Origin: Ectocarpus siliculosus
Lineage: Eukaryota > Sar > Phaeophyceae > Ectocarpales > Ectocarpaceae
Assembly (NCBI GenBank): GCA_000310025.1
Contig: FN649733.1
Span: forward strand, 2,190,396 to 2,211,703
Reading direction: 5' to 3'
DNA: 21,308 nucleotides
Within the stretch, counting starts at the first letter, position 1; every line of letters starts with the position of its first letter. The translations under genes were made by a program, and so were the position numbers. Positions 11,272 to 21,308 of the stretch are shown piece by piece. The notes under the pieces were generated by a model, which was given only the letters and a program-made list of their open reading frames with translations, did no database searches and was not told the origin of the DNA.

Positions 11272-11343
11272 ATGGTGTTCGTTTACGGGTGCTTGCACAA
11301 GAAATGCCTGGTTCTTTGGAAGGAGAGATACTTTGTGCTCAAG
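11272..11343 (+). CDS. PH-MAPK exon 1: PH domain strands 1-2
   Basis: The ATG lies in a caccATGG context; donor GTGAGA at 11344, phase 0. It encodes [20 protein letters not shown] then FVLK, the classic PH start in which a basic K-x-R in strand 2 (WKERYFVL) often contacts phosphoinositide headgroups. An additional 5' exon cannot be excluded. Confidence 0.85.
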
Positions 11344-20300: not shown

Positions 20301-21308
20301 TGCTCCTGACGTGGAGGACGGGGACTCCGGGGGGGAAGTGAAGTTGACGGAGTACGTGGTGACGCGATGGTGGAGAGCCCCCGAGGTAAGAGGGAGAGAG
20401 AGAGAGAGCCATTGCTGTTTCATCTCTTCATGCTGCTGCGTTCTGATTGGCCAAGAGGTGTTTGGTGTTTCTCGCCTCATGAAACGGAGTCCATGCTGCT
20501 GCAATCTGATTGGATTGGCCTAGAGGTGTTTCTTTTTTTGGCCTCGCACAAACTCGGATTTATCGTCTTGAGTTGTACCATTGTCTCGTCGGTCTTGTCT
20601 TTGCACCATGTAGGCGAAACAGCTTGGCTAAAGTAGTTTCAGCCCCAATTACAGACCTTCCTTCCTGCAGGCAGTTGGCGCACGCGCAGAGGTCTTTTTC
20701 ATAGACTTGCCGGGCTGCAACACGCGAATAACGGGGACAGTTTCAGTTTCAGTCAAACGCGCAGTGGGAATGGTCCGAGAATGTTCGGATTTGAAGTTGA
20801 AACACAGGGAGATGGAGTTTCTTGCGGATGATGTGGAGGCGTGTGACAGCACCCGTCAAAGAAATCGTTTCCACATACAAGGGTAGATTGAGGTGGTGCC
20901 TGTGTGGTGTGCGCGTTTTTTCCCTTTTTTTTTACCGTTTTTTACAAGAGAGAGAAGGACATGTCTCGTAACAAGCTTACTTCTTGGGGGGGGGAAAGAA
21001 AAGAAAAAAGAACGACAATAAATTGCAAGAGAATAGGGCGAACTACGCGCCGCAACAACAGCAGTTTTGACGAAAAATAAATAAGAACATAACGCACCTT
21101 CCACCACGACAATTTTGTTGCAGGTGTTCCTGGAGGCGAACTATGGCACCGCCATCGACGTGTGGTCGGCGGGCTGCATCATGGCGGAGATGCTCCAGCG
21201 GAAGCCGCTCTTCATGGGGTCCAACACGGCCCAGATGCTGAGACTAGTGGTCCAGTTCACGGGAAAGCCGTCTGAGGCTGACCTGTCGTTCGTTACCAAC
21301 AAGAAGGT
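11272..21308 (+). CDS. PH-domain MAP kinase (TEY type), 3' end outside window
   Basis: Exons: 11272-11343, 16629-16802, 17551-17691, 18215-18298, 19172-19339, 19619-19783, 20179-20385 and 21124 to about 21306 (about 398 residues so far). All have GT-AG boundaries and all introns are phase 0. Residues 5-95 form a PH domain ([40 protein letters not shown]; final Trp in EEME|WVNAL). Residues 127-398 are a MAPK catalytic domain: glycine loop GSGGYGVV, Lys156 in VAVKK, alpha-C Glu174 in [16 protein letters not shown] (Asp253), DFG (271-273), TEY (325-327), [21 protein letters not shown]. Known: MAPKs are switched on by dual phosphorylation of TxY, and PH domains bind phosphoinositides or proteins. 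Inference: a MAPK placed at membranes through its PH domain. Odd features: about 36 extra residues between DFG and TEY, Leu gatekeeper (208), WWRAPE. The start has an excellent context (caccATGG). All key catalytic residues are present, so it should be active. Confidence 0.9.
12328..12348. repeat. (CTG)7 microsatellite
   Basis: Seven perfect CTG units within intron 1 of the PH-MAPK gene. Confidence 0.9.
12421..12448. repeat. (GA)14 microsatellite
   Basis: Fourteen uninterrupted GA units, intronic. Confidence 0.95.
12991..13014. repeat. (CCCA)6 microsatellite in a C-rich tract
   Basis: Six CCCA units preceded by a C run from 12986 and followed by CCCCGCCCGCCCC. The strand asymmetry (G-rich complement) could allow a G-quadruplex on the minus strand. 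Confidence 0.9.
13050..13071. repeat. 9-bp inverted repeat with 4-nt loop
   Basis: AGTCGTTGG (13050-13058) and CCAACGACT (13063-13071) are exact reverse complements around TCAC. Intronic; the tight loop would make a stable hairpin. Confidence 0.65.
14081..14093. repeat. C13 homopolymer
   Basis: Run of 13 C in intron 1 of the PH-MAPK gene. Similar intronic runs occur at 15356-15368 (C13), 18161-18174 (C14) and 19870-19883 (C14), showing that such tracts are common in this genome. Confidence 0.9.
15356..15368. repeat. C13 homopolymer
   Basis: Run of 13 C in intron 1 of the PH-MAPK gene, ending in GACACAC. Confidence 0.9.
15645..15826. repeat. degenerate 75-79 bp tandem repeat, about 2.4 copies
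   Basis: Successive units begin near 15647 (gctgactttagcc), 15726 (tctgacttggctg) and 15800 (gctcgactttagc). Within a unit the order is gctggcgatg..., GAAACACAC, GGGCACGA. The third copy stops after ctggcgatgag. Mismatches are frequent, so the array is old. The GAAACACAC core resembles the 127-135 bp repeat at 18713-19171 in another intron of the same gene. Confidence 0.6.
16053..16121. repeat. perfect 25-bp inverted repeat with 19-nt loop (foldback element)
   Basis: The left arm 16053-16077 (TGACTTGGCTTCAGTATGAA then AAGTG) is the exact reverse complement of 16097-16121. The loop (16078-16096) has a further CCCC/GGGG pairing, so transcribed RNA would form a hairpin of almost 30 bp. A GCAAA occurs on both sides (16045-16049 and 16122-16126) but does not abut the left arm, so a target-site duplication is doubtful. 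It lies in intron 1 about 500 nt before the next PH exon. Candidates: a recent MITE-like or foldback insertion, or a small-RNA precursor. Confidence 0.92.
16340..16355. repeat. 16-bp partial copy of the hairpin loop/arm, opposite orientation
   Basis: AAAGTGTCCCCATGTG matches the reverse complement of 16087-16102 at 15 of 16 positions. Both sites are followed by TCCAGTACCA within a short distance (16131 and 16360), suggesting a small dispersed family or an old local duplication. Confidence 0.4.
16629..16802 (+). CDS. PH-MAPK exon 2: PH domain strands 3-7 and helix start
   Basis: The acceptor is ccacctcacag and the donor GTGGGG at 16803; both phases are 0. It encodes [40 protein letters not shown] and [18 protein letters not shown]. 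The pattern (L-x-Y-K-K early, F-V-L-T-x-P later, E-x-E-E-M at the helix) is standard PH. Confidence 0.88.
16803..17550 (+). other. PH-MAPK intron 2 (748 nt)
   Basis: Contains a T14 run at 16812-16825 right after the donor. A 182-codon antisense frame (16623-17171) overlaps both the exon and this intron and has no recognisable domain. The acceptor is gcttctccag. Confidence 0.7.
17551..17691 (+). CDS. PH-MAPK exon 3: PH C-terminal helix and linker into the kinase
   Basis: The acceptor is gcttctccag and the donor GTGAGT at 17692; both phases are 0. It begins with the near-invariant PH tryptophan ([20 protein letters not shown]), runs through [20 protein letters not shown], and ends LDNHYEM, where Y-E-M is the entry to kinase strand 1. 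Confidence 0.88.
17704..17733. repeat. (CTG)10 microsatellite beside a 5' splice site
   Basis: Ten CTG units beginning 12 nt downstream of the exon 3 donor. If the intron were retained, the open frame would read poly-Leu before a stop near 17757. Confidence 0.95.
18161..18174. repeat. C14 homopolymer upstream of a 3' splice site
   Basis: The 14-C run, followed by GCC/CCC-rich sequence, lies about 40-54 nt before the exon 4 acceptor at 18214 and may serve as part of its pyrimidine tract. Confidence 0.9.
18215..18298 (+). CDS. PH-MAPK exon 4: glycine-rich loop and catalytic lysine
   Basis: The acceptor is tgtgttggcag and the donor GTGGGT at 18299; both phases are 0. It encodes [20 protein letters not shown] then DTRVAVKK. 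GxGxxG is present as GSGGYG and the ATP-anchoring Lys is the first K of VAVKK. Confidence 0.93.
18299..19171 (+). other. PH-MAPK intron 4 (873 nt) carrying a tandem repeat
   Basis: Donor GTGGGT and acceptor acatacacacag. The last third is a 127-135 bp tandem repeat (18713-19171). Minus-strand frames across it (18757-19131) show the repeat as duplicated peptide and are not genes. Confidence 0.8.
18713..19171. repeat. 127-135 bp tandem repeat, about 4 degenerate copies
   Basis: The core ...ATTGTGGTCAGCCAATT..GCGGTCGATG... recurs with GGCCA/AGCCA at 18730, 18857, 18991 and 19126, giving spacings of 127, 134 and 135 bp. Each unit continues with AGAAACACACAC-type CA-rich sequence. The fourth copy ends at the exon 5 acceptor, and its CA-rich part supplies the sequence just before that AG. 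Confidence 0.8.
19172..19339 (+). CDS. PH-MAPK exon 5: helix C to hinge
   Basis: The acceptor is acatacacacag and the donor GTAAGA at 19340; both phases are 0. It encodes [40 protein letters not shown] and [16 protein letters not shown]. The Glu of IREIRL is the salt-bridge partner of the ATP lysine. The gatekeeper, aligned with Gln in ERK1/2 and Thr in p38, is Leu (VYMVLD). Confidence 0.93.
19619..19783 (+). CDS. PH-MAPK exon 6: helices D-E and catalytic loop
   Basis: The acceptor is tatttttcag and the donor GTATGG at 19784; both phases are 0. It encodes [40 protein letters not shown] and [23 protein letters not shown] gives the catalytic Asp and Mg-binding Asn. The common MAPK form is HRDLKPSN; here Ser is replaced by Ala. 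Confidence 0.95.
19784..20178 (+). other. PH-MAPK intron 6 (395 nt)
   Basis: Donor GTATGG and acceptor gctgtgtcacag; contains a C14 run at 19870-19883. The 279-nt intron 5 (19340-19618) just upstream also holds nothing recognised. Confidence 0.8.
19870..19883. repeat. C14 homopolymer
   Basis: Fourteen C residues within intron 6. Confidence 0.9.
20179..20385 (+). CDS. PH-MAPK exon 7: DFG, inserted activation loop, TEY, APE
   Basis: The acceptor is gctgtgtcacag and the donor GTAAGA at 20386; both phases are 0. It encodes [20 protein letters not shown], then a Gly/Ser/Ala-rich stretch with an A5 run (GAAAAAG), the acidic [12 protein letters not shown], and [14 protein letters not shown]. From the Asp of DFG to the Thr of TEY is 54 residues, against 18 in vertebrate ERK2. 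The exon is open throughout and flanked by clean splice sites, so the insertion is part of the exon. Confidence 0.93.
20386..21123 (+). other. PH-MAPK intron 7 (738 nt)
   Basis: Donor GTAAGA followed by a GA-rich tract (20394-20408); acceptor attttgttgcag. Contains the 63-bp tandem duplication at 20429-20553 and a G-run near 20985-20994. Confidence 0.8.
20429..20553. repeat. 63-bp tandem duplication, two imperfect copies
   Basis: catgctgctg...ctgattgg...aagaggtgttt begins at 20429 and again at 20492. The second copy has a short insertion (gattggattgg) and a T-run. Intronic. Confidence 0.75.
21124..21306 (+). CDS. PH-MAPK exon 8 (possibly cut by the window edge): helix F and MAPK insert region
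   Basis: The acceptor is attttgttgcag, phase 0. It encodes [60 protein letters not shown] then K. DVWSAGCI is the invariant helix-F motif. GT at 21307-21308 could be the next donor, again phase 0, or the exon may continue past the window. Confidence 0.9.
   Translation, partial: MFLEANYGTAIDVWSAGCIMAEMLQRKPLFMGSNTAQMLRLVVQFTGKPSEADLSFVTNKK

Follow-up and report, generated by a model that had tools for sequence, protein, structure and literature searches.

A putative MAP kinase gene with an N-terminal PH domain in Ectocarpus siliculosus, and related loci in the same genome

Exons and domains of the gene

We analysed a stretch of 21,308 nt of the brown alga Ectocarpus siliculosus (contig FN649733.1, positions 2,190,396 to 2,211,703 of the forward strand; C8:2190396-2211703 in the 189 Mb genome that we searched), referred to below as the window. 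The genome has 87 matches to chlorophyll-binding proteins, which mark the organism as photosynthetic. The window carries the exons of a pleckstrin homology (PH) domain followed, after a short linker, by those of a mitogen-activated protein kinase (MAPK) with the activation motif TEY. Using the window DNA we reconstructed eight exons on the + strand between 11272 and 21306, the joins being read from the genomic sequence. In this splice reconstruction, joined exons 1–8 encode 398 residues in one frame, free of stops; all eight exons start in phase 0, an AG acceptor precedes each of exons 2–8 and GT follows every one of the eight. The preliminary description of this DNA, made from the sequence alone, had proposed the joins EEME/WVNAL and HYEM/NKTIG, and both are found as claimed in the rebuilt frame. 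The features are listed below, where L014 is one of three paralogous loci described in the next section and the paralogue-only profile is a PH profile built from these three.

11272–11343, + strand: exon 1, with the start codon (ACCATGG, the first ATG of a frame open from 11167) and the first PH strands; at 11.4 bits the best open reading frame (ORF) of the window with the paralogue-only PH profile
11344–16628, + strand: intron 1, 5285 bp, GT-AG, containing a repeated hairpin element at 16053–16121
16629–16802, + strand: exon 2, central part of the PH domain; both its joins are spanned by a single exon of L014, and alone it matches no Pfam family
17551–17691, + strand: exon 3, C-terminal helix of the PH domain, linker and pre-kinase stretch (FELDNHYEM), bridging both domains
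18215–18298, + strand: exon 4, glycine-rich loop (GSGGYG) and VAVKK lysine of the kinase
19172–19339, + strand: exon 5, N lobe of the kinase
19619–19783, + strand: exon 6, HRDLKPAN catalytic loop of the kinase
20179–20385, + strand: exon 7, DFG and a Gly/Ala/Ser-rich activation-loop insert, with 48 residues from DFGLAR to TEY
21124–21306, + strand: exon 8, C lobe as far as FVTNKK, then GT at 21307–21308; the remaining C lobe lies beyond the window

The Pfam PH family (PF00169) matches residues 6–91 with 35.6 bits when the 129-residue N-terminal piece is searched and with 32.1 bits in the whole protein (cut-off 25.1). Exon 3 corresponds to residues 83–129, so that the PH match ends, and many of the MAPK matches described below start, within it; searched alone, neither exon 2 nor exon 3 matched any Pfam family. 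The paralogue-only profile, from which the window gene was left out, served as a control, with the caveat that the limits of the paralogue pieces were set by eye, and for the second L015 piece with the window PH domain in mind, so that some circularity remains. Joined exons 1–3 scored 53.3 bits against this profile. The true exon order was the best of the six permutations (the other five gave 23.5–38.7 bits), and 1000 within-exon shuffles reached a maximum of 8.7 bits (a score was reported for 883). When all six-frame ORFs of the window were compared with the profile, only exons 1, 3 and 2 were found at E ≤ 1 (11.4, 7.9 and 6.3 bits, respectively), on a common strand and in the correct profile order. 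The weak point is the poor signal of single exons: the best scores per block-shuffled window (n = 20) were 2.4–6.8 bits, a range that includes the score of exon 2 alone.

In the kinase part, Pfam Pkinase matches with 196.6 bits, and the MAPK hallmarks (VAxKK lysine, HRD, DFG and the TxY motif, here TEY) are all present in the joined frame. A search of the PDB matched 2642 sequences; the best 60 of these are all named MAP kinases, ERK2 included, with the lowest E-value (2e-76) for MPK6, and their matched stretches begin at residues 116–131, many of them in exon 3. That PH and TEY MAPK exons are joined in one frame is thereby confirmed. Two features set the kinase apart. First, in the five MAPKs of the genome where both DFGLAR and TEY motifs were found (L014, L015, L017, L018 and L019) these motifs are separated by 9–13 residues versus the 48 of the window kinase, an excess of 35–39 residues before TEY. 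Second, the window kinase has TRWWRAPE instead of the usual TRWYRAPE, the tyrosine of which is kept in all seven other aligned kinases.

Directly after exon 8 the assembly has 1,459 N; the window gene is incomplete, its coding part ending at 21306. The last exon of L014, used as query, did not find the missing last kinase exon in the 8.4 kb beyond the N, and for this reason the remaining C-terminal part of the kinase, with the docking site and the stop, is probably hidden in the N. Elsewhere in the window, an Rfam scan at the gathering threshold gave no match, nor did a Pfam scan of ten long ORFs in the first half at E ≤ 0.1. The element at 16053–16121 within intron 1 is a near-perfect hairpin with 31-nt arms (97% complementary) and a 7-nt loop. 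It occurs at no fewer than 40 places of the genome, the window included, with 91–100% identity on the better strand (40 scored of 169 first-look candidates), and is a small palindromic repeat resembling a miniature inverted-repeat transposable element.

Paralogues in the same genome

A genome search with the PH part of the window gene found seven places at E ≤ 1, three of which are the window's own exons. The remaining four are C489:24642 (E = 3.3e-5), C489:934997 (0.021), C4:906218 (0.0585) and C16:1286369 (0.107). At C489:24642, C489:934997 and C16:1286369 the PH match lies 3.6, 2.1 and 1.3 kb, respectively, upstream of a match to the window kinase on the same strand. The place on C4 was rejected as a likely chance match: its resemblance is short and confined to exon 1, and it scores 8.7 bits with the PH profile and shows DNA similarity over at most 14 bases. 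Pfam PH scores of the three paralogues are 55.4, 42.6 and 45.6 bits; with the 35.6 bits of the window gene, all four exceed the cut-off.

The locus L014 (C489:22500-32000) is the most informative for the exon joins. A single exon matches PH residues 6–108, spanning the two joins that the window gene has in its PH part, and another exon reads FELDLKYEMIKPIGHGAYGVV, spanning the join of linker and kinase made by exons 3 and 4. With a GT following position 2450 and an AG preceding 3925, the PH exon can be spliced to the kinase exon in frame, in phase 2. In L015 the PH pieces are in two ORFs; the first PH strand was not found in this 9-kb stretch, which includes 1974 N. L016 (C16:1280500-1289500, minus strand) is a PH-MAPK paralogue with open exons. 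The preliminary description had claimed one gene for the PH domain and the TEY MAPK; the exon structure and the three paralogous loci support this claim and indicate that the organism has the fusion more than once. Judged from sequence, PH-MAPKs look like a small but real family of this genome, neither a one-off nor a misreading.

The family may be larger. A Pfam PH search of the genome gave 25 matches at E ≤ 1 and the window's own PH exons were not among them; therefore, PH domains split between exons are missed in such a search and the four PH-MAPK loci are a lower bound. The distribution of the family is known from this one genome, to which the comparison among eukaryotes was confined. In viral contigs, no relatives were confirmed among the 13 candidate stretches of one scan and the 189 of another. 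In prokaryote genomes there was one distant match among 117 candidate stretches (23% identity); it covers query residues 100–329, so the PH domain is outside it. As a separate observation, the kinase matches at C18:2101830-2107436 are preceded at a distance of 3.7 kb by a same-strand PH match, possibly marking another PH-kinase.

Three further loci, L017, L018 and L019, encode MAPK-type kinases with TEY, TDY and TEY, respectively. Upstream of them no PH exon scored above 3.2 bits in the ∼5.0–6.3 kb before the first kinase match, on the gene strand; a PH exon located farther away could be missed, as the 5.3-kb intron 1 of the window gene shows. Two more sets of kinase matches, L021 and L022 (C481:15000-29000), are divergent, on opposite strands within ∼10 kb; their activation segments read MTETAVTRWYRPPE and MTEHVVTRWYRPPE. 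We built a tree of eight kinases: the four PH-bearing ones, L017, L018, L019 and MPK6 (the short L022 row was dropped and L021 was not included). A branch separates the four PH-bearing kinases from the rest; its support is 87/95, or 81/87 when L016 is removed.

What the PH domain may do

The PH fold was modelled with AlphaFold2 for L014, not for the window gene, from an input alignment of two sequences. The best model (pLDDT 85.3, pTM 0.74; the predicted local distance difference test and template modelling scores) has seven strands and a C-terminal helix. The 50 Foldseek matches listed for it are all PH-domain structures, several with inositol phosphates, and TAPP1, GRP1, DAPP1 and AKT are among these neighbours. 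In PH domains that bind phosphoinositides, strand 1 ends with, and strand 2 contains, basic residues that make up the motif K...K/R-x-R. Residues K10, K17 and R19 of the window gene align with basic residues of TAPP1 (1eaz). Among the paralogues L014 is strongly basic at these positions, while one position is changed in L015 and one in L016.

Since the PH fold matches and K10, K17 and R19 are aligned, we favour a phosphoinositide-dependent placement of the kinase at the membrane. The PH domain would bind a phosphoinositide or a membrane-bound protein; once bound, it would concentrate the kinase at the membrane where the upstream MAPK kinase (MAPKK) works, and, as in AKT, contact between the PH domain and the kinase may hold the latter in an inactive state that ends with membrane engagement. 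From this analysis we infer lipid binding, membrane placement and regulation of the window PH-MAPK; direct membrane placement of the kinase by the predicted PH binding is plausible. Taken as a whole, the reading of the window as a single spliced PH-MAPK gene, one of at least four such loci, whose kinase would be placed at the membrane via its PH domain, perhaps with AKT-like inhibition, is in our judgement moderately probable.

A number of observations weigh against it. The single mRNA of exons 1–8 is a prediction from genomic DNA. The last kinase exon or exons and the stop are unseen, the assembly having N there, so that an intact C lobe with its docking site is no more than a supposition. 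For the L014 PH domain, the remaining four AlphaFold2 models have pLDDT values falling from 73.3 to 40.6. The window PH domain is 25–27% identical to those of the paralogues, and its basic loop lacks two residues relative to TAPP1 and pleckstrin; lipid binding therefore cannot be assumed. L016 has lost several kinase motifs: it has HQG in place of HRD and a broken glycine loop, and both the VAxKK lysine and TEY are missing, making it a candidate PH-pseudokinase or decaying gene. Finally, the branch uniting the PH-bearing kinases has support under the star threshold of the program both with and without L016, and the window kinase is 60% identical to L014 and 59% to L015 versus 58% to L017 and 57% to L019 (48% to L016). 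The four PH-MAPK loci perhaps originated by one fusion that was later duplicated; because support is below the threshold and plain identity does not separate the groups, a single origin is no more than possible.

The main alternative is that the PH domain is a protein-interaction or autoinhibitory module acting in place of a scaffold rather than a lipid-binding membrane anchor. PH domains frequently have protein ligands or no ligand that can be detected, and many are without detectable lipid binding. In favour of this alternative, the PH domain diverges more than the kinase when the window gene is compared with the PH-bearing paralogues (25–27% versus 48–60% identity), and the W-K of the other genes is replaced by W-T-E-R in L015. 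Nevertheless, K10, K17 and R19 are kept in the window gene, L014 is strongly basic at the same positions and phosphoinositide-binding PH domains are among the close structures. We regard this alternative as possible but rather doubtful.

Could the window gene be a decaying copy on its way to becoming a pseudogene like L016? The unseen C-terminal exons would fit such a fate, as would TRWWRAPE, the low-complexity insert before TEY and an end branch (0.63; 0.57 for L016) that is the longest among the four PH-bearing kinases. However, all eight exons are open and bounded by GT-AG signals, catalytic motifs and TEY are present, and the missing exons coincide with the N of the assembly; decay is improbable. 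A false joining across introns of two adjacent genes, for a PH protein and a MAPK, might be suspected from the 5.3-kb intron 1, from joins that rest on genomic DNA and from the weak single-exon scores, but the PH match ends and many MAPK matches start within exon 3, so that such a misreading is very unlikely, and with the PH-then-kinase order repeated in three other loci and a possible in-frame PH-kinase splice in L014, we reject it.

We return to the single PH-MAPK gene with a membrane-placed kinase. Textbook MAP kinases gain access to membranes via scaffolds. A MAPK with a PH domain of its own would, if true, provide a direct link from phosphoinositide signalling to the final step of the cascade. 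The role of the PH domain is testable in a genome that has PH-bearing MAPKs along with others where no PH exon was found. A more far-reaching and quite speculative scenario, which we consider unlikely on present data, is that photosynthetic stramenopiles have a branch of MAPKs that reads membrane lipids itself, the PH domain replacing the scaffold. This branch would have diversified into active kinases and a PH-pseudokinase possibly competing for membrane sites, and the long activation loop of the window kinase would alter its switching.

Comparison with known systems

PsSAK1 of Phytophthora sojae is said to differ in structure from other stress MAPKs. Neither ‘PH domain’ nor ‘pleckstrin’ appeared in the main text of the papers searched for these terms, the original PsSAK1 paper not being one of them. 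In the kinome of Phytophthora infestans nine kinases, from the AGC, CAMK and CMGC groups, are recorded with a PH domain, which is called common on kinases (PMC3019232, Table 2). The PH-bearing CMGC kinases share with the window gene a PH domain on a kinase; the table is silent on whether the CMGC member or members are MAPKs. The same work, in the portion of its text examined, discusses a PAS-MAPK fusion and no PH-MAPK (PMC3019232). The caution in the preliminary description that PH-MAPKs may exist elsewhere in stramenopiles was apt, given these oomycete CMGC kinases and the four loci described here.

No description of a PH-MAPK was found in the literature searched, which covered few subscription papers and included the accessible parts of PMC3019232, PMC8036616, PMC3386981, PMC5852060, PMC1266030, PMC5371900, PMC9500583, PMC10299790, PMC6678668 and PMC10425847. 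One text match, ‘MAPKs with PH’, was rejected, as it reads ‘MAPKs with phospho-specific’; further matches, in the excerpts retrieved, mention PH and MAP kinase apart, not as one protein. PH-MAPKs could be a little-described variant of MAPKs. The finding is less surprising for two reasons: kinase-PH fusions are common, and CMGC kinases with a PH domain have been recorded in an oomycete.

Among established kinases, ERK2, ERK5, MPK4 and MPK6 are like the product of the window gene in the kinase domain and TEY. To our knowledge, ERK-type MAP kinases have no PH domain, and the window protein differs from them in that the best 60 of the 2642 PDB matches begin at residue 116 or later, after its PH part, as well as in the activation-loop insert and TRWWRAPE. 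AKT/PKB has the same domain order, an N-terminal PH domain followed by a kinase, and is generally taken as a model for membrane recruitment and for inhibition by PH-kinase contact. The window kinase, whose best matches are MAP kinases, is a MAPK and not a member of the AGC group; it would be AKT-like at most in the way it works.

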